Shown here: positions 37 through 5,833 of the stretch, piece by piece | Layout of the letters: each line of letters opens with the position of its first letter | How positions within the stretch are numbered: the stretch's first letter is position 1 | Origin: a candidate division SR1 bacterium CG_4_9_14_3_um_filter_40_9 | GTDB lineage: Bacteria > Patescibacteriota > Gracilibacteria > Absconditabacterales > Absconditicoccaceae | Reading direction: 5' to 3' | NCBI GenBank assembly: GCA_002791215.1 | Contig: PFWQ01000027.1 | Location: forward strand, 1-5,833 | DNA length: 5,833 nucleotides | Program-made: the position numbers and the translations under genes | Notes under the pieces: model-generated | Database searches by the model: none | The model's input: only the letters and a program-made list of their open reading frames with translations | What the model was told of the DNA's origin: nothing

Positions 37-870
37 ATGGAACCAGCTCAGATTTTGTTTAGTGATTCCAATCTCTATTTCCAAGATACAAGCAGTTTGC
101 AATCCAATATAGGATTCATCAACCCGATGGATATAGATATTTACGTAAAGAAATCTTTTTCCTGTTTTCAAGAGCCAGTGAATATCATCGGTTGATATAT
201 ACAAGCATTCAACAGCAGCCATCGCATAGATCAAGCATGTACATGCTACAAAATAAATCTTACCAATAATCAACCGCTCCTCCAAGCTGAATGAATAATC
301 ACGTTTGATCTGGAGCATCAAGGATTCATCAACCAGGATATGATCAAAAATCTCATCCAGGGACTTCCAATAATCGCTATCGCTCTGCTCAGTCTCCTTA
401 CTTTAGTAGCCCCTGCGCCCATAGCAACGTCATTGCGCTACATAAGCATAATAGGTATGGTGGTGATGATTTTCTATTACGGCCGGAAGATGATCAAGAT
501 GTTTTACAAAATGTTGAAAGCTAAAGGTGTTGATTATGAATGAGTGATGGTCTATTATGAAAAGAACTCAGATTTGCTGAATATAAATAAAGAGTATATC
601 GCCATCCTCAAAGAGCTCCGCATCATGAAAATCGAGAAAATCGTAGCAAAAAATGGAGAATTTTACCTCAAACAAACCATTGAAAAACCGAGCTTCAGAA
701 AAATAATCAAAGGAATATTTGTTACCATGCCTTCAGACGAAACAGTAATTCAACAGACCATTGAAAATACTATACGTTTCCTACTACAGACGAGTTTTAT
801 AGTCAGCTACGCAAATAATTCCGCAATGAAATGAGGAAGTATTGATGTAGTGACTATAAAATCTTCTTAA
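37..870 (+). CDS. Unrecognised protein with two central membrane helices (code 25)
   Basis: Under code 25 this is one 277-residue protein with TGA read as glycine at residues 53, 86, 169 and 266. Under the standard code it falls into several short pieces. I do not recognise the family. An N-terminal region of about 107 residues is followed by two hydrophobic helices, about residues 109-130 and 135-149. The second is followed by a basic stretch rich in K, M and R, which suggests that the C-terminal part is cytoplasmic by the positive-inside rule. The C-terminal 120 residues are mixed, charged and probably folded (motif EYIAILKELRIMKIEKIV). No signal peptide is visible. The start is the first ATG after an in-frame TAA at 25-27; no Shine-Dalgarno sequence precedes it. 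A GFIN motif occurs at residues 26-29 and 96-99 and is encoded by an exact 14-base repeat. The lipase-like gene follows after 32 bases, so the two may be cotranscribed. I am confident of the gene but not of any function. Confidence 0.8.
111..334 (+). repeat. Exact 14-bp direct repeat inside one gene
   Basis: AGGATTCATCAACC occurs at 111-124 and again at 321-334, exactly 210 bases apart. The spacing is a multiple of three, so both copies encode GFIN in the same frame of the membrane-protein gene, at residues 26-29 and 96-99. The repeat may be the remains of an internal duplication or may reflect a repeated short motif; the residues between the copies show no obvious further repeat. Confidence 0.6.
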
Positions 871-888
871 GATTTTATATCATGATAT
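855..888. terminator. Overlapping dyads at a gene end; possible terminator
   Basis: TATAAAATCTT (855-865) and AAGATTTTATA (869-879) form a perfect 11-bp inverted repeat with a CTT loop, and the stop codon TAA (868-870) lies within it. A second perfect palindrome, ATATCATGATAT (877-888), shares three bases with the right arm, so the two structures exclude each other. The arm is A+T-rich and no clear T-run follows the stem, so this is not a textbook intrinsic terminator. It could equally be an mRNA-end stabiliser or a protein-binding dyad ahead of the lipase-like gene. Confidence 0.35.
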
Positions 889-902
889 GTCACTTCTCAA
901 CC

Positions 903-1721
903 ATGAATCCAAGCGTCATAGAAAAGATAAAAAAAATAGTAGGCTGAAAAAAAAACCAGGCGTCTACCGAAACTCCACAGGAAACTGTTTCCAATCCTCT
1001 CCAGCAGCAAATTCAAAATTCACCGGGAGCGAACATTTCCCCTACAGGAAAAACATATCGAAATAAATTAAACGGTGTATACAGCAAATACAAAAGTCTT
1101 TTTGTAGAAAAAGTCTTTACGGAAATAGTCATCCCAGGAGAAGATAAAACCTGCGCCTACATCGCAGATGAAAGTTACATATCGGAAGATAAACGCAAAA
1201 AAATAATCTGAACTTTTACGCTCGACGAAAAAAATAGCGGCAATATACACTGTGTCTACGTGGACGAAGCGAAAAATCTTTGCATCATAGGATACAGATG
1301 AACGGTCATCACTAATCTTAAAGATCTAGCAAGCGATGCGCAGATAGTATTGGATGTCCAAGGTATGGATCCTAGAGTAAAAGATGCATTAAAGGCATAT
1401 GATACCATCAAGAGGGAATATCCGAAACATCTCATCTGGGTATGTGGCCATTCATTGGGCGGAACTATCAGCTACGTCGTAGCAAAACATAGAGAGCCAG
1501 AACGCTGCGTGGTGTTCAATCCATGAGTTTCACTCAACACCTTTTTCATCCAAATGCTTCAAGATACTTTCCAACATAGTACACGAACTGAGCGTACCTA
1601 CACCTACAAAATCCTGGGAGACATCATTTCCGCAATCGGATTCGTCTGACACGTAAAAACTTTCACTATACAAGCAAATGAGCCATTAGAGCTTCATCTA
1701 ATGAAAAATTTCATTGAATAA
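903..1721 (+). CDS. Lipase class 3-like alpha/beta hydrolase (code 25)
   Basis: This 272-residue protein has TGA read as glycine at residues 15, 103, 133, 208 and 249. Residues 1-16 are basic, and about 17-50 form a Q/S/T/P-rich, probably disordered linker. The hydrolase domain starts near residue 66. Typical class 3 lipase features follow in order: GYRGT (130-134) in the place of the family's oxyanion-side F-R-G-T motif; the nucleophile elbow GHSLGG with Ser184; FNPG (206-208 plus preceding F) after the next strand; Asp240 in KILGDIIS as the likely acid; and His265 near the C-terminus as the likely base. The triad therefore appears intact and an ester or acyl-lipid hydrolase activity is expected; the substrate is unknown. 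No signal peptide or membrane segment is visible, so it probably acts in the cytoplasm or on the inner membrane face, unless exported another way. Two of the recoded glycines lie in core motifs (133 and 208). The start is ATG without a Shine-Dalgarno sequence. The gene is convergent with the next gene, leaving only ten bases between the stop codons. Confidence 0.85.
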
Positions 1722-1731
1722 TATATCACTT

Positions 1732-2286
1732 TTACTTACGTAGGCCTGCTACACTCGTAATACCGATAGCCAATACGCCTCCAGCTAAAGCAGTTCCGAG
1801 CTGAAGTAATCACATGGTAGTGAGGAATATTTTTGGTAAGAAGCCAAGAGAAACTAAGACTCGAGCGACTGCAAACAGCAATCAAAACTTAATAAAAGCT
1901 GACACACCCAACGCGAGAAATCTGTTCCATGATTTTGCGAGATAGAAATATTTCATACCCCATACCAAAAGAAAATTTCCGATCCGAATCAATGGAATCA
2001 TATACACCAAAAACATCGTAAATGGTCAGAAGATTACTCACCTAGCCAAAACTCCCAAACTCGGTAGCATAATCAATGGCAAGAGTGAATATTTCTTCAT
2101 ATGCAATGCGCCAAGCACTAGAAATGCATTTACAAGGATTCCTACAAGAATTTGCGGATGTCCAAGCAAAAATGGGACGGCGAACGACGCAACGATAGAA
2201 ATAGCCAATAGCACAACTTTTGCCCACGAAGACAAGACAAGTACAGTTTTATCGAGAACTATGGCGGTAGTTTGATTGTGCTCCAT
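1732..2286 (-). CDS. Small multi-pass membrane protein, possibly ECF S-component-like (code 25)
   Basis: This 184-residue, very hydrophobic protein has TGA read as glycine at residues 83, 87, 135 and 159. About six membrane helices can be drawn, near residues 22-41, 46-62, 66-82, 88-112, 123-148 and 158-180. From memory, the pattern with LPS in the middle, MIPLIRIGN (96-104), SAFIKFGLLF (129-138) and LQLGTALAGG (161-170) resembles a family of small membrane proteins in Clostridia and CPR genomes that databases often label 'iron hydrogenase'. That label is misleading here, since the protein has no cysteine at all and cannot bind an iron-sulphur cluster in the usual way. A substrate-binding (S) component of an ECF-type vitamin transporter is a plausible role, but this is inference. 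I chose ATG at 2284-2286. An in-frame ATG at 2389-2391 would add 35 residues, one of them a TGA glycine, without adding an obvious domain. Confidence 0.75.
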
Positions 2287-2546
2287 AAGAAGAAGAAATG
2301 AATAAAATCCAAATTGTAAAGGAAGATGGTATTTTCGCAGAAGATAATATGATTCTACGGTGGAAAATCAATCTTGATAGTTTATGTCCATTCTATATAG
2401 TGGTAATTGAGACACAAAGACCTAATAGCTTAGGTCAAACGTCGAAATTATACCGACGACTTTAGATGCTCCAACTTCGAACGTAGTGAAGAAGTTGAAG
2501 ATTTCTAAAGCAGGCGGTACGATAGTTTTATCCATCATCCAATATC
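2287..2546. promoter_or_regulatory. Divergent intergenic region with a hairpin cluster
   Basis: This region separates the starts of the minus-strand membrane protein and the plus-strand lipoprotein and must hold the promoters of both. Several dyads are visible. ATCAA-TC-TTGAT lies at about 2368-2379. GACCTAA (2419-2425) pairs with TTAGGTC (2430-2436) around a 4-base loop. CGTCG (2440-2444) pairs with CGACG (2454-2458). A compound hairpin pairs CTTTAGA (2460-2466) with TCTAAAG (2504-2510) and, inside it, CAACTTC (2472-2478) with GAAGTTG (2491-2497). The cluster at 2419-2510 could be a structured leader of the lipoprotein mRNA, or operators. No convincing -35/-10 pair was found. Small ORFs exist on both strands but are weak. 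Confidence 0.5.
2298..2465 (+). CDS. Doubtful small ORF (55 codons)
   Basis: An ORF from ATG at 2298 ends in TAG at 2463-2465. For it: AGAAGAA lies just upstream of the ATG and could serve as a ribosome binding site. Against it: it ends in TAG where every other gene here ends in TAA, it contains no TGA glycine, it starts only 11 bases from the divergent start codon, and its 3' half runs into inverted repeats. An open run of this length in such AT-rich DNA with only two stop codons is not rare. A plus-strand frame 2 run of coding-like sequence follows from 2429, so a frameshifted remnant of a gene is another reading. No family is recognised. Confidence 0.2.
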   Translation: MNKIQIVKEDGIFAEDNMILRWKINLDSLCPFYIVVIETQRPNSLGQTSKLYRRL

Positions 2547-3185
2547 ATGAAAAAAATACTTCTTCTGGTAGCGTTATGCACAAGCGTTCTTTTGGCATGA
2601 TGCGGAAAATCTGATGTGCAAACCTGTTCACTGACAGAGTTGACGGGGAATTCATGCACAGATGCAAGTTCACAATCCAGTGTGCCTTCGAGCACCGCTC
2701 TCGGCACAGCAAAGCTGATTCTCCAGTCTTTGAAAGATAATGATTTGCCTATCTTAGCGACATTTGTTGGATTACAAGGAGTCCGCTTCTCGCCATATGC
2801 ATATGTAAACACAGGAACAGATATCGTTCTCAGCAGTGATGAGATAAAGAATGGACTCGCTATCTCTAGATCGTACACATGGGGCGCCTTCGATGGGTCA
2901 GGAGAGCCCATCGATCTATGAATCGGACAATATTTTGAGAGATTCGTTTATGATCTCGATTTCCTCAACGCACCGGAAATAGTGGAAAACCAGGAAGTGA
3001 TGAGAGGTAATATCATTAATAATGCTTTTAATGTCTATCAAGGCAAATATATCGTAGAATTTTATATCCCAGGTATTGATCCAAAATATGACGGCATGGA
3101 TCGGAGAAGCCTCACACTGGTATTAGAAAAAACCGACGAGAAGCGGTATCTCATCGGCATCATTCACAATCAACGAACCATATAA
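2547..3185 (+). CDS. Putative lipoprotein with a conserved C-terminal domain (code 25)
   Basis: This 212-residue protein has TGA read as glycine at residues 18 and 125. Residues 1-18 are a lipoprotein signal peptide: KK, then a hydrophobic core, then the lipobox LLAGC, whose glycine at -1 is encoded by TGA. Cys19 would be lipidated and would anchor the protein on the outer face of the membrane. A polar S/T-rich linker follows (about 35-52). The domain from about residue 55 to the end carries GVRFSPYAYV (78-87), YTWGAFDGSGEPIDL (110-124), ERFVYDLDF (131-139), a PGIDPKYDGMDRRSL segment (175-189) and a final YLIGIIHNQRTI. I recall this pattern from uncharacterised secreted or lipoproteins of Firmicutes and other bacteria, but I know no function. 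The start ATG gives exactly a signal peptide of the right length, although no Shine-Dalgarno sequence precedes it. The gene is convergent with adk. Confidence 0.85.
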
Positions 3186-3191
3186 TGTAGA

Positions 3192-3208
3192 GGCGATTAT
3201 CAATCGCC
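3192..3208. terminator. Hairpin between convergent genes
   Basis: GGCGATT (3192-3198) and AATCGCC (3202-3208) form a perfect 7-bp stem with a 3-base ATC loop in the 34-base gap between the stops of the lipoprotein and adk genes. The position suits a bidirectional terminator. The T-runs are weak on both sides (AGAATTTTC on the plus strand), so efficiency is uncertain. Confidence 0.5.
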
Positions 3209-3219
3209 AGAATTTTCAA

Positions 3220-3792
3220 TTATAATTCAAGGGCCTTCTTGGTCGCCTCAAAAATTTCTTCCACAGTTCATTCTGCATCTATCTTTACCAATTTTCCCAT
3301 ATCTTCAAAATGCTTCAATACAGGCATAGTTTCATTTTCGAAAATAGCGATTCTGGTGTTCATAGCCTCAAGCGTATCATCATCACGAGACTCAAGTTTT
3401 GCTCTGCTCATAAGTCTTTCTATGGCCTTTTCTTTAGATAGCACATATTGTATGACGACAAAGTCTCTTTCTAATTTTGCTTCTTTTTCAATAAAGAAAT
3501 CAGCCTGCTCCATAAGTCTTGGAAACCCATCAATCATGATATATTTGTCATTTTTCTTGACAATATGTAAGCCAGTCAAAACCAAATAGTGAGTGATATA
3601 GTTGTCAATCATATCTCCATGTTCCATTATGCCTTTGACATAATTGCCTATCAGATTATTATTTGATGTGAGCGCTCTAAGTGTTTTCCCCATTTCAAAA
3701 TAGAGATGATCAGACAAAATTTCACAAAGCAATTTCGCTTGAGTGCCCTTTCCGCATCATTGGATTCCTAGCAGGATAATGTCTTTTTTCAT
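3220..3792 (-). CDS. adk: Adenylate kinase family protein (code 25)
   Basis: This 190-residue nucleoside monophosphate kinase is expected to transfer phosphate from ATP to AMP in the cytoplasm. TGA is read as glycine at residues 12 and 175. The P-loop is G9-I-Q-G12-C-G-K15-G-T-Q18, matching the family's GxPGxGKGTQ, and Gly12 is one of the TGA codons; proline is replaced by Gln11. The AMP-site motif DGFPR is at 88-92. The lid is the short form (about 130-147, R130, R136-D-D-D, R147), without zinc cysteines. An unusual point is YFEMGKTLRAL (31-41) in place of the usual ISTGDLLR: the Ser-Thr pair that contacts the AMP base is replaced, whereas the Arg is kept (R39). Substrate preference may differ, so adk is the best symbol but another NMP kinase is possible. 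The start ATG (3790-3792) gives the normal N-terminus; no Shine-Dalgarno sequence is seen. Confidence 0.9.
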
Positions 3793-3826
3793 ATTTTATT
3801 TGAGGAAGTTTAAAAAAAGCAAAGTG

Positions 3827-3854
3827 CTTATAAAGATTCTACAATAAATTACAA
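3827..3854 (-). promoter_or_regulatory. Weak candidate promoter for adk
   Basis: Reading the minus strand, TTGTAA (3854-3849) and TATAAG (3832-3827) are separated by 16 bases and lie about 35 bases before the adk ATG. The DNA here is so AT-rich that similar pairs arise by chance. The -10 box also overlaps a small hairpin followed by seven T (AAGCA-CTT-TGCTT, 3829-3817, T-run to 3812), which could instead be a weak attenuator in the adk leader. Confidence 0.25.
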
Positions 3855-3867
3855 ATTCAAATCAGAG

Positions 3868-3895
3868 AAAAGGTCGATTGCAATTTTAATTGACC
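3868..3895 (-). terminator. Possible minus-strand terminator, with alternative pairing
   Basis: Bases 3872-3880 pair with 3887-3895 to give a 9-bp stem, including two G-T pairs, and on the minus strand it is followed directly by TTTT (3871-3868 region). The left arm also contains GATTGC (3876-3881), which can pair with GCAATC (3896-3901) instead. The two pairings cross, so they form either a switch or a pseudoknot. This structure would end a transcript coming from the GC-rich island. Confidence 0.35.
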
Positions 3896-3976
3896 GCAAT
3901 CAGAGTTTACCCCGCAGAAGTGCGGGGAGGCGTTTTTGTCCAGGAGTACTCCGGGAGATCGGGCACGGGCAAGGTA
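3896..3976. other. GC-rich, hairpin-dense intergenic island; candidate small RNA
   Basis: This stretch is clearly richer in G+C than the AT-rich DNA around it and holds no supported gene. It includes the hairpin CCCCGCA-GAAG-TGCGGGG (3910-3927), the perfect palindrome GGAGTACTCC (3942-3951) and a GGG-rich run (3952-3970). It lies between the rpsI terminator (3978-4006) and a second terminator-like stem (3868-3895), so a minus-strand transcript of about 110 bases could be a separate RNA. I see no match to tRNA, the SRP RNA core or any RNA class I recognise. It might also be only a set of terminators and operators. Confidence 0.4.
3910..3937 (+). terminator. Strong hairpin with a downstream T-run (plus strand)
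   Basis: A perfect 7-bp GC-rich stem (CCCCGCA 3910-3916, TGCGGGG 3921-3927) with a GAAG loop is followed after five bases by TTTTT (3933-3937). The five-base gap weakens it as an intrinsic terminator. No plus-strand gene ends nearby, so it may act to block antisense transcription into the ribosomal operon or may be part of a structured RNA. Confidence 0.4.
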
Positions 3977-3977
3977 C

Positions 3978-4006
3978 AAAAAAAACCCTGCATATGTGAA
4001 GCAGAG
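3978..4006 (-). terminator. Intrinsic terminator of the ribosomal operon
   Basis: On the minus strand, 15 bases after the rpsI stop, CTCTGC (4006-4001) pairs with GCAGGG (3991-3986), a 6-bp stem with one G-T pair and a 9-base loop. It is followed at once by eight T (3985-3978). Position and shape are those of a Rho-independent terminator for rpoA-rplQ-rplM-rpsI. Confidence 0.7.
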
Positions 4007-4020
4007 TTCTTTTATGAAAT

Positions 4021-4443
4021 TTATCTCTTTGACCGCTTTGGTCTCTTTCTCGCTTTTTTGAGTCCAGGCTTCTTCCTCTCCTTGATTCTAGGATCTCTTT
4101 TGAGATGTCCGTAAGGCTTCAAAGTCAATCTATAATCTGGATTCCGATCTATCAGAGCTCTTGCGAATGCAAGTTTGATGGCATCAGCCTGACCAGCTAT
4201 TCCACCGCCCTTCAGGCTTATTTCAGCATCGAATTTCTTCACTGCGTCGTTTCAAATCGTTTCAAGCGGAGAAATCGCAGTCTGATACATATATATATTT
4301 CCGCCAAAATATTGTTGGAGGGTTTTTTCTTGCCCTCATTCGGTTTTTACAAGAAAATTTCCAGTTCCCTTGGAAGACAATTTGATGGTTGCAGATGATT
4401 CTTTTCTTCTGCCGACTGCGTAACTGTACTCTTTGTTTGCCAT
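4021..4443 (-). CDS. rpsI: 30S ribosomal protein S9 (code 25)
   Basis: This 140-residue protein of the small-subunit head has the normal S9 length. TGA is read as glycine at residues 36 and 64. YAVGRRKESSATIKL near the N-terminus is the family's signature start. KGGGIAGQADAIKLAFARAL (77-96) is the conserved central motif. The C-terminal LKRDPRIKERKKPGLKKARK and the final SKR tail match the family; in known ribosomes this tail reaches the P-site tRNA. The ATG overlaps the rplM stop by one base (TAATG), which suggests translational coupling, and no Shine-Dalgarno sequence is seen. It is the last gene of the operon before the terminator. Under the standard code two thirds of the gene would be lost. 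Confidence 0.97.
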
Positions 4444-4910
4444 TATTTATATAGATTTACAGGTTTAAAATTGTCATATCTTGTAGAAGTTCAAACAACC
4501 AATTTTAATCTCTTCATTCTCTGATCTCTCAATTTATTCTTAGGAAGCATACCTCTGACAGCTAATTTCAAAGCTTTGGTTGGATCTTTTTCCAAGACAT
4601 CACCGAGCTTAGCTTTTCTGACATTTCCTTTGTATCCGCTGTAGCTGTAATACAATTTGTCGGCTAATTTTTTACCAGTGACCTTGATTTGTTGAGCATT
4701 TTCAACAATGACAAAATCGCCGGCATCCCAGAAATCGTTGTAGTAAGCCTTATCTTTTCACAAAAGTTTTTTGGCAATGTCAGTTGCTAATCTTCCAAGC
4801 GTTCTTTTGGAAGCATCAACTCTATACCACTTTCTTTGCTTGTTCATTTCTTCAGGTTTCACCCAAAGGGTCTTATTGAGGTCTTTTTTAGTAAATTCCA
4901 TCGGCAACAT
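4443..4910 (-). CDS. rplM: 50S ribosomal protein L13 (code 25)
   Basis: This is a 155-residue large-subunit protein with TGA read as glycine at residues 51 and 140. WYRVDASKRTLGRLATDIAK (28-47) is the L13 N-terminal core, GDFVIVENAQQIKVTGKKL (64-82) the central strands, and AVRGMLPKNKL (117-127) the family signature. About 27 residues precede the core WYRVDA, including TLWVKPEE, an N-terminal extension also common in other bacterial L13 proteins. ATG at 4910 is used here; an in-frame ATG at 4901 (residue 4) is equally possible, and neither has a Shine-Dalgarno sequence. A 59-base A-rich gap separates it from rplQ. The stop overlaps the rpsI start. Confidence 0.96.
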
Positions 4911-4969
4911 ATCAATCAATTAAATAATTTTTTAATCTCTTTTGTCGTTTTCATCCTTTTCGTCCTCTT

Positions 4970-5359
4970 TTATAGTAATTTAAGCATGATTTTCGGAGCG
5001 GCATCACCCACTCTGTGACCTACCTTATAATCAGCAACGAAACTAGATTTGTTTCCTGCTTCTTTATATTTAGGTAACCGAGTATTAATGACTTTTTTTC
5101 CATCTTCTTCGCCATAGATGACTGATTGTGTATATCTTATGCACTCTCTTTTTCCATCTTTTTTATCTGGATATCTAGTGGCGATGTCCAACAATTTGGA
5201 AAAAAATGAATCTGCTTCAGATTTGAGGATCTTAGCTCTTTTTGGTGTAGTAACTACTTTCCCAGTTCTGACCAAGCTTGTGAGAAGCTGTCATACGAAT
5301 ATTCTTCTCTCTTTAGCTCCAGTACTAAGCTCAATCAATGGATTTTTCTTATGTCTCAT
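4970..5359 (-). CDS. rplQ: 50S ribosomal protein L17 (code 25)
   Basis: This is a 129-residue large-subunit protein with TGA read as glycine at residue 23. MRHKK at the start, L-STGAKERRIF, LLTSLVRTGKVVTTPKRAK (25-43) and the terminal RVGDAAPKIMLKLL are L17 features; family members usually have an R-N-L or similar where this protein has VGQLL. A segment of charged residues (about 64-106) is longer and less conserved, and the PKYKEAGNK part stands where many L17 proteins have a shorter loop. Its place directly after rpoA is the near-universal bacterial arrangement. The start ATG gives the conserved MRH terminus; no Shine-Dalgarno sequence is present, the leader being T/A-rich. Confidence 0.96.
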
Positions 5360-5387
5360 AATAAATAACACACTATATAAAACTATC

Positions 5388-5434
5388 TTTATCGCGAAGC
5401 GTTTATCGCCCGAAGGGCTTTTATCGCAAAGCTT
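5388..5434. repeat. Three tandem mini-hairpin units between rpoA and rplQ
   Basis: TTTATCGC recurs at 5388, 5402 and 5420, each time followed by a tiny loop and the matching right arm: CGC-GAA-GCG, GCCC-GAA-GGGC and GC-AAA-GC. The arms differ between units but keep their complementarity. On the transcribed minus strand the middle unit reads GCC-CTTCG-GGC, which contains the very stable C(UUCG)G tetraloop. The repeat occupies about half of the 84-base gap and may be an mRNA processing, pausing or stabilising element. Confidence 0.6.
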
Positions 5435-5443
5435 TTAACCATT

Positions 5444-5833
5444 TTATCCAAAAAGTGATTTATCGATATTCGCCAATGAACTGTTGATTTCATCGATGGC
5501 CTTTCTTCATATTCATTTCATGAGAAGAAGTTCTCCTTTCTTTTTCTTTTCGAGATCTTCAACATACAAGATATTATTTTTGATCAAGGCATTTCTTGTC
5601 CTTTCGCTCAATGGAAGCGCATCGATAGGCATGATCTTGATATTAGCTTCTTCATGCAGACTTACCTTTTCTTTCTCCAATTCATCGATATCGATCAAGA
5701 CTGATCTGTCGATATATACATTATCGAAGATGAAGAGTTTTGCATATGAAGCCAACACTTCTCCGGCGAACATAACGATCTCTTTAGGAGAAACTTTGTG
5801 ATAACCGGATTTGATTTCTAGGACCAATAAATC
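5444..5833 (-). CDS. rpoA: RNA polymerase alpha subunit, C-terminal part (partial, code 25)
   Basis: The last 129 residues of RpoA are present; the 5' part lies beyond the right end of the window. Residues 1-36 of the visible part (LEIKSGYHKVSPKEIVMFAG and following) are the end of the alpha N-terminal dimerisation domain. About 37-65 is a charged linker and 66-129 the alpha C-terminal domain, which contacts UP-element DNA and activators. IKIMPIDALPLSERTRNALIK matches the start of that domain. The helix-hairpin-helix KGIGRKAIDEI (106-116) has both glycines, residues 107 and 109, encoded by TGA. The protein ends NIDKSLFG before TAA, as usual for the family. It heads the visible operon, with rplQ following after 84 bases. 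Confidence 0.96.

Follow-up and report, generated by a model that had tools for sequence, protein, structure and literature searches.

UGA is read as glycine in the Absconditabacteria, a reassignment that PMC8629427, in the portion available, credits to Campbell 2013 and Rinke 2013, and Shulgina and Eddy (2021, PMC8629427, in part) describe it there together with the reading of CGA and CGG as tryptophan; the latter is restated in the available part of PMC13092985, whereas the corresponding part of PMC13059738 places a member of the Absconditicoccaceae under NCBI code 25 and never contains the word CGG. Here we analyse a stretch of 5,833 nucleotides (the window), the start of a contig of 11,557 bases (C78), which an earlier note had labelled throughout as genetic code 25 with UGA read as glycine. 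Comparison of the sequence with its relatives leads us to conclude, with a probability of about 95%, that the source of the window is an Absconditabacteria (SR1) genome whose assembly yields no release factor 2 (RF2), where UGA would encode glycine and CGA and CGG very likely encode tryptophan. Both reassignments are already published for this lineage; the window illustrates them clearly and adds no new code. It is ordinary for its lineage, and its re-annotation needs three changed codons.

The earlier note had reported 24 in-frame TGA codons across nine frames, and a recount of 1,693 codons (nine stops included) gives exactly that number, with all nine frames closed by TAA and no internal TAA or TAG in any of them. 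Nine of the 24 sites can be aligned; the other 15 sit in four open reading frames (ORFs) without a relative among the fetched loci. The column counts draw on 39 family loci hand-picked from the L13 matches (identity mostly 54-74%, down to 47%), among which the same genome may be included twice because two tools were used for retrieval, and on 68 standard-code references, two of which (L086 and L145) were retained though flagged with TGA in the aligned genes. Glycine, or TGA itself, is the commonest entry at six of the nine columns: residue 12 of adenylate kinase (Adk; TGA 3757, reverse strand), which is the second glycine of the P-loop GIQGCGKGT (24/25); L13 residues 48 (TGA 4758; 109/109) and 137 (TGA 4491; 86/96); the two RpoA sites (TGA 5513 and 5507; 46/46 at each); and S9 residue 64, where it accounts for 44 of 80 ungapped entries, with gaps in 29 of 109. 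The same meaning is indicated at the level of codons by comparison with a 400-kb portion of G040, a complete SR1 genome, for which ORFs were kept at an identity of at least 35% over 60 columns (16 of 119 ORFs; 10 of 119 in the parallel comparison with 400 kb of genome G008): 62 of 95 TGA codons of the window genome lie opposite GGN or TGA; for its GGN codons the corresponding count is 247 of 336. Together with the profile scores given below, these results uphold the reading of UGA as glycine.

CGA and CGG are used 11 times in the window, and their meaning distinguishes our reading from plain NCBI code 25, in which only UGA changes, to glycine, and CGA and CGG still encode arginine. Plain code 25, which is the label given by the earlier note and the only code by which PMC13059738, in the portion available, describes its Absconditicoccaceae member, survives best among the rival explanations and is nevertheless improbable. 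Opposite the 35 CGA and CGG codons of the window genome that can be compared, G040 has TGG 18 times, CGA five times, phenylalanine five times and seven other residues once or twice each, and an unambiguous arginine codon (CGU, CGC, AGA or AGG) not once (0/35), whereas 95 of 163 AGA, AGG, CGU and CGC codons of the window genome lie opposite arginine. The column of S9 residue 137 (CGG 4033..4035, reverse strand) is aromatic, with W48, F38, Y17, CGA3, S2 and CGG1 (n=109) and no other arginine codon. At S9 residue 100 (CGG 4144..4146, reverse strand) the entries are V23, W14, F12, Y10, CGA8, I8, M6 and less (n=109), arginine being outside the 12 commonest entries, which make up 103 of the 109. Reading CGG as tryptophan raises the S9 score against PF00380 from 108.7 bits, obtained with arginine, to 116.3 bits; the column of the L17 codon CGG 5078 holds leucine 30 times, isoleucine seven times and tryptophan twice (n=42). 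The arginine tRNAs in the genome's own assembly, with anticodons TCT, CCT and GCG, cover AGA, AGG and CGU/CGC only, and none serves CGA or CGG. In three complete relatives (G004, G008 and G040) the tRNAs with UCG and CCG anticodons have G73 and lack A20 in six of six cases, the positions being numbered by eye (ARAGORN begins those genes one base early). The label of code 25 therefore holds for UGA and fails for CGA and CGG, which behave as tryptophan.

The family-wide column count points the same way. This count was confined to columns with at least 15 standard-code references, which removed 226 of 389 TGA sites and 6 of 51 CGA/CGG sites of the family and 61 of 313 standard-code CGA/CGG sites; the standard-code loci doubled as references and control. 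Among the 45 family CGA and CGG codons with enough references, 16 fall in aromatic columns, 29 in other columns and none in arginine columns; for 252 such codons of the standard-code loci, 160 columns are arginine and none is aromatic. L13 residue 25 is tryptophan in 68 of 68 standard-code loci and CGA in at least 12 family loci, as seen over the first 40 of 48 family CGA sites. Forty-five of the 119 ORFs on other contigs of the window genome have the support of a relative (16,323 codons; stops 29 TAA and 15 TAG, one ORF running off its contig), and these use TGG 70, CGA 49 and CGG 42 times, so that CGA and CGG make up 91 of 161 presumed tryptophan codons; per 10,000 codons of whole supported ORFs, the frequencies are CGA 30.0, CGG 25.7 and UGG 42.9.

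The genome's own ExoIII gene contains seven CGA and CGG codons, at which the best-matching solved ExoIII has tryptophan four times, phenylalanine twice and serine once; the five structures aligned are all variants of a single protein, in one of which residue 210 is serine. A protein search with ExoIII (best 120 of 7910 matches) as arbiter between arginine and tryptophan was undecisive because the database proteins had already been translated with different tables, and it was dropped in favour of the DNA-level comparison. The public relatives in that search (P0002-P0121) show R or W at the CGA and CGG columns and G or W at the TGA columns, and the residue at recoded ExoIII columns is apparently set by the translation table of each source.

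A Mycoplasma-like reading of UGA as tryptophan (code 4) is highly improbable. It could draw on the same public ExoIII proteins, in which tryptophan fills 132 of 360 cells at three TGA sites, if tryptophan did not also appear at GGA columns, apparently as an artefact of the tables. The best Pfam scores of the six proteins with a family sum to 430.1 bits with glycine, compared with 407.8 bits with tryptophan (22.3 bits lower) and 411.0 bits with cysteine; the P-loop, L13 and RpoA columns are glycine; and the tRNA with a UCA anticodon found in relatives carries glycine identity signs.

Release factors and tRNAs are consistent with glycine as the meaning of UGA. RF2 (TIGR00020) scores above its cut-off in none of the 24 family genomes, the window's own included (assemblies 65-100% complete); outside the family it does so in 14 of 16 genomes from the same class and in 10 of 14 controls, and the two RF2-less genomes of the class outside the family (G034 and G036) both have TGA inside L13. 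The release-factor match of the window genome is RF1, at 434.7 bits (cut-off 423.25). A tRNA with a UCA anticodon occurs in 20 of 23 family relatives, with the anticodon confirmed by ARAGORN in 20 of 20, and the glycine identity set of G1:C72, C2:G71, G3:C70 and U73, a rule taken from the available part of PMC8629427, is complete in 19 of these 20. ARAGORN labels these tRNAs tRNA-SeC, apparently from the anticodon, and this label is what speaks for UGA as selenocysteine, an interpretation that has next to no plausibility: the UCA tRNA is 74 bases long and lacks a long variable arm, and UGA occurs at the frequency of an ordinary codon, at 289 of the 16,323 codons of the supported ORFs and of their 1,118 glycine codons. 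A selenocysteine decoder, which the earlier note had named as an outcome that would count against glycine, was sought through SelB (TIGR00475), which is above cut-off in 0 of 40 genomes, versus 2 of 14 controls (SelA was not searched for). A standard-code reading in which the TGA codons arose by pseudogene decay or assembly error, to which a draft assembly of 95 contigs and 88.5% completeness might point, can be dismissed just as firmly, since the nine frames hold 24 TGA and zero internal TAA or TAG, TGA recurs on other contigs of the genome (760 times among the 39,273 codons that make up 119 ORFs, a few of these surely spurious) and lies within L13 in 15 of 23 family relatives, and no family genome has RF2 above cut-off.

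Several observations weigh against the glycine and tryptophan assignments. At L17 residue 23 (TGA 5291) the column is arginine in 37 of 42 entries. The lipase-like protein scores 28.2 bits against PF12146 with glycine, versus 29.1 with tryptophan and 28.5 with cysteine (against PF01764, 25.5 with glycine versus 24.8 bits with tryptophan). In the comparison with G008, TGG lies opposite only 2 of 10 CGA and CGG sites of the window genome, with unambiguous arginine at 0 of 10. The UCA tRNA of L194 has A3:U70 in place of G3:C70 (1/20), no UCA tRNA was found in the family relatives G015, G016 and G017, and in the recoded sister genome G036 (97% complete) none of the 34 tRNA matches, all spanned by the 17 of 30 loci and two short stretches on which ARAGORN was run, has a UCA anticodon. 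Finally, UCA, UCG and CCG tRNAs are all absent from the window genome's assembly by both Infernal and ARAGORN. Two further columns are exceptions, that of Adk residue 175 (TGA 3268) being variable and that of S9 residue 36 having a gap in 51 of 108 entries and glycine in only 4. The claim that glycine falls at conserved family positions consequently stands for six of the nine aligned sites and not for L17 residue 23, Adk residue 175 and S9 residue 36.

The absence of the three tRNAs from the assembly can be set beside its incompleteness and the position of the contig end. The assembly (922,604 bases in 95 contigs, 88.5% complete, G+C 0.38) yields 28 tRNAs with Infernal and one tRNA-Met listed by ARAGORN alone, versus 37-38 tRNAs in each of three complete relatives. 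Contig C78 carries tRNAs in the order Leu, Glu(CTC), Arg(TCT), Ala and stops 7 bases past tRNA-Ala. Near the 20 UCA genes of relatives, within the fetched stretch, tRNA-Tyr is present in 19 cases and tRNA-Ala in 18, the latter 265-843 bases off; one exception lies at a contig edge, with Tyr and Ala both missing, one lacks Ala, and four have Tyr and Ala in the opposite arrangement. Because C78 stops inside the cluster in which relatives carry the UCA gene, we infer that the UCA gene of the window genome lies just beyond the end of C78. The check on a UCA-anticodon tRNA that had been proposed earlier thus finds none in the window assembly itself, and finds the tRNA in 20 of 23 relatives, in the very cluster where the window's contig ends. 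The sequence TTCAATCC..., initially a candidate for the UCA gene, is in fact tRNA-Glu; loose tRNA patterns were unspecific, matching tRNA-Glu(UUC) and chance sites besides the UCA gene, and a 15.9-bit tRNA match in the genome's own assembly is part of a tmRNA.

In the mechanism that we propose for glycine at UGA and tryptophan at CGA and CGG, loss of RF2 would have freed UGA from termination, leaving RF1 alone to end genes at UAA and UAG. The window genome would carry UCA, UCG and CCG tRNAs in its unassembled part, the UCA tRNA presumably charged by glycyl-tRNA synthetase and the UCG and CCG tRNAs by tryptophanyl-tRNA synthetase. The tRNA-Arg(GCG), which is present in the genome, would read CGU and CGC, and CGA and CGG would thereby be free for the tryptophan tRNAs.

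Judged by its L13 relatives, the source is a member of the Absconditabacteria (SR1), not of the Gracilibacteria, which narrows the earlier suggestion of one or the other. Where an L13 relative has an informative name, that name is SR1 or Absconditabacteria; among these is the complete genome RAAC1_SR1_1 (70% identity), which carries the same tRNA cluster. The closest matches bear only the broad labels 'Patescibacteria group' or 'uncultured bacterium', and a single match goes by the name Peribacteria. The metagenome-assembled genome L076, labelled Candidatus Peribacteria, has an L13 67% identical to that of the window, with CGA at the invariant tryptophan column, and seems to be a misnamed Absconditabacteria genome or contig.

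With TGA read as glycine, families can be assigned to Adk, S9, L13, L17, the C-terminal domain of RpoA and a lipase or hydrolase fold; the first ORF, the third ORF and the lipoprotein-like ORF have no Pfam or NCBIfam match at E 0.001. Five of the genes with a family lie on the reverse strand: the C-terminal part of RNA polymerase alpha (5444..5833; PF03118, 45.0 bits), with two TGA (5513 and 5507); L17 (4970..5359; PF01196, 33.9 bits), with one TGA and one CGG (5078); L13 (4443..4901; PF00572, 133.4 bits), with two TGA (4758 and 4491); S9 (4021..4443; PF00380), with two TGA (4336 and 4252) and CGG at 4144 and 4033; and Adk (3220..3792; PF00406, 80.9 bits, and alignments to PDB structures), with two TGA (3757 and 3268). 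At the L17 codon TGA 5291-5293 a true substitution and a base error are indistinguishable. On the forward strand, a lipase or serine hydrolase-like protein (903..1721; PF12146 and PF01764) has five TGA (945, 1209, 1299, 1524 and 1647) and CGA at 1059 and 1584, and a lipoprotein-like ORF (2547..3185) has two TGA (2598 and 2919), CGG at 3102 and 3144 and CGA at 3174; reading TGA 2598 as glycine gives the sequence LLA-G-C, which we take to be a lipobox. A hydrophobic ORF of at most 227 amino acids on the reverse strand (1732..2415) has four TGA (2038, 2026, 1882 and 1810), with CGG at 1984 and CGA at 1861; the TGA count for this ORF begins at 2283, and its longest possible start is at 2415.

The first ORF (37..870, forward strand, 277 amino acids) has four TGA (193, 292, 541 and 832) and CGG at 484, and its 3' end is overlapped by a copy (818-865) of a dispersed repeat, roughly 50 bases long, with the core AATGAGGAATTATTGNGGTAGTAACTATAT. 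Allowing up to 6 mismatches, this repeat has 6 copies in 134,863 bases of the window genome (the others at L214:2266, L216:8461, L219:13999, L224:2384 and L224:6457), and none in shuffled sequence, in 400 kb of G040 or in 400 kb of G008. A looser core gives 11, 5 and 22 matches in the window genome, G040 and G008, respectively, and 1 in shuffled sequence of the window genome. A scan of the window for repeats and Rfam families gave nothing bearing on the code.

The order of the changes can be approached through G036, a genome of the same class but another family and presumably of Gracilibacteria type. Like the window's family, it has TGA at glycine columns of L13 and no RF2 above cut-off. Unlike the window's family, its UCG tRNA has A20 and A73 (numbered by eye), as do its arginine tRNAs, and CGA therefore looks as if it is still arginine in G036; on the same side, one CGA stands in an arginine column at L067. 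Because of these two observations, there is a slight suggestion that UGA changed first and CGA and CGG later. The prediction, in the available part of PMC8629427, of CGG as tryptophan in some Gracilibacteria and as arginine in others complicates this order. It is conceivable, and put forward tentatively, that the class preserves successive stages, with UGA becoming glycine before the split of the Absconditabacteria from recoded sisters, CGA and CGG becoming tryptophan later in the Absconditabacteria alone, and most tryptophan codons of this genus (91/161) being former arginine codons.

Gene calls and protein databases that use code 25, 4 or 11 misread such genomes, whereas the proteins are read correctly once all three codons are changed as in Shulgina and Eddy's code, which we take to be NCBI table 37. 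The CGG-rich window genome is, moreover, a good test case for a change in the meaning of sense codons.

Among known systems, the window genome resembles NCBI code 25, the code of SR1 and Gracilibacteria, in having UGA at glycine positions of essential genes, in missing RF2 and, in its relatives, in having a UCA-anticodon tRNA of glycine type; it differs in that CGA and CGG are arginine in table 25 and behave like tryptophan here. It agrees with the code of Shulgina and Eddy, as set out in the available part of PMC8629427, in all three codon meanings, in a tRNA-Arg(GCG) for CGU and CGC, in its low G+C (0.38) and, again in relatives, in UCG and CCG tRNAs with tryptophan signs (G73, not A20). According to the same part of PMC8629427, where codons are counted in aligned Pfam domains, CGG is used fewer than 7 times per 10,000 codons in all Absconditabacteria species but one; unlike most of these species, the window genome uses CGG frequently (25.7 per 10,000, in whole ORFs). 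The exception, GCA_002791215.1, has CGG 24, CGA 30 and UGG 35 on that count, and this CGG-rich genome may be the window genome itself or close kin of it.

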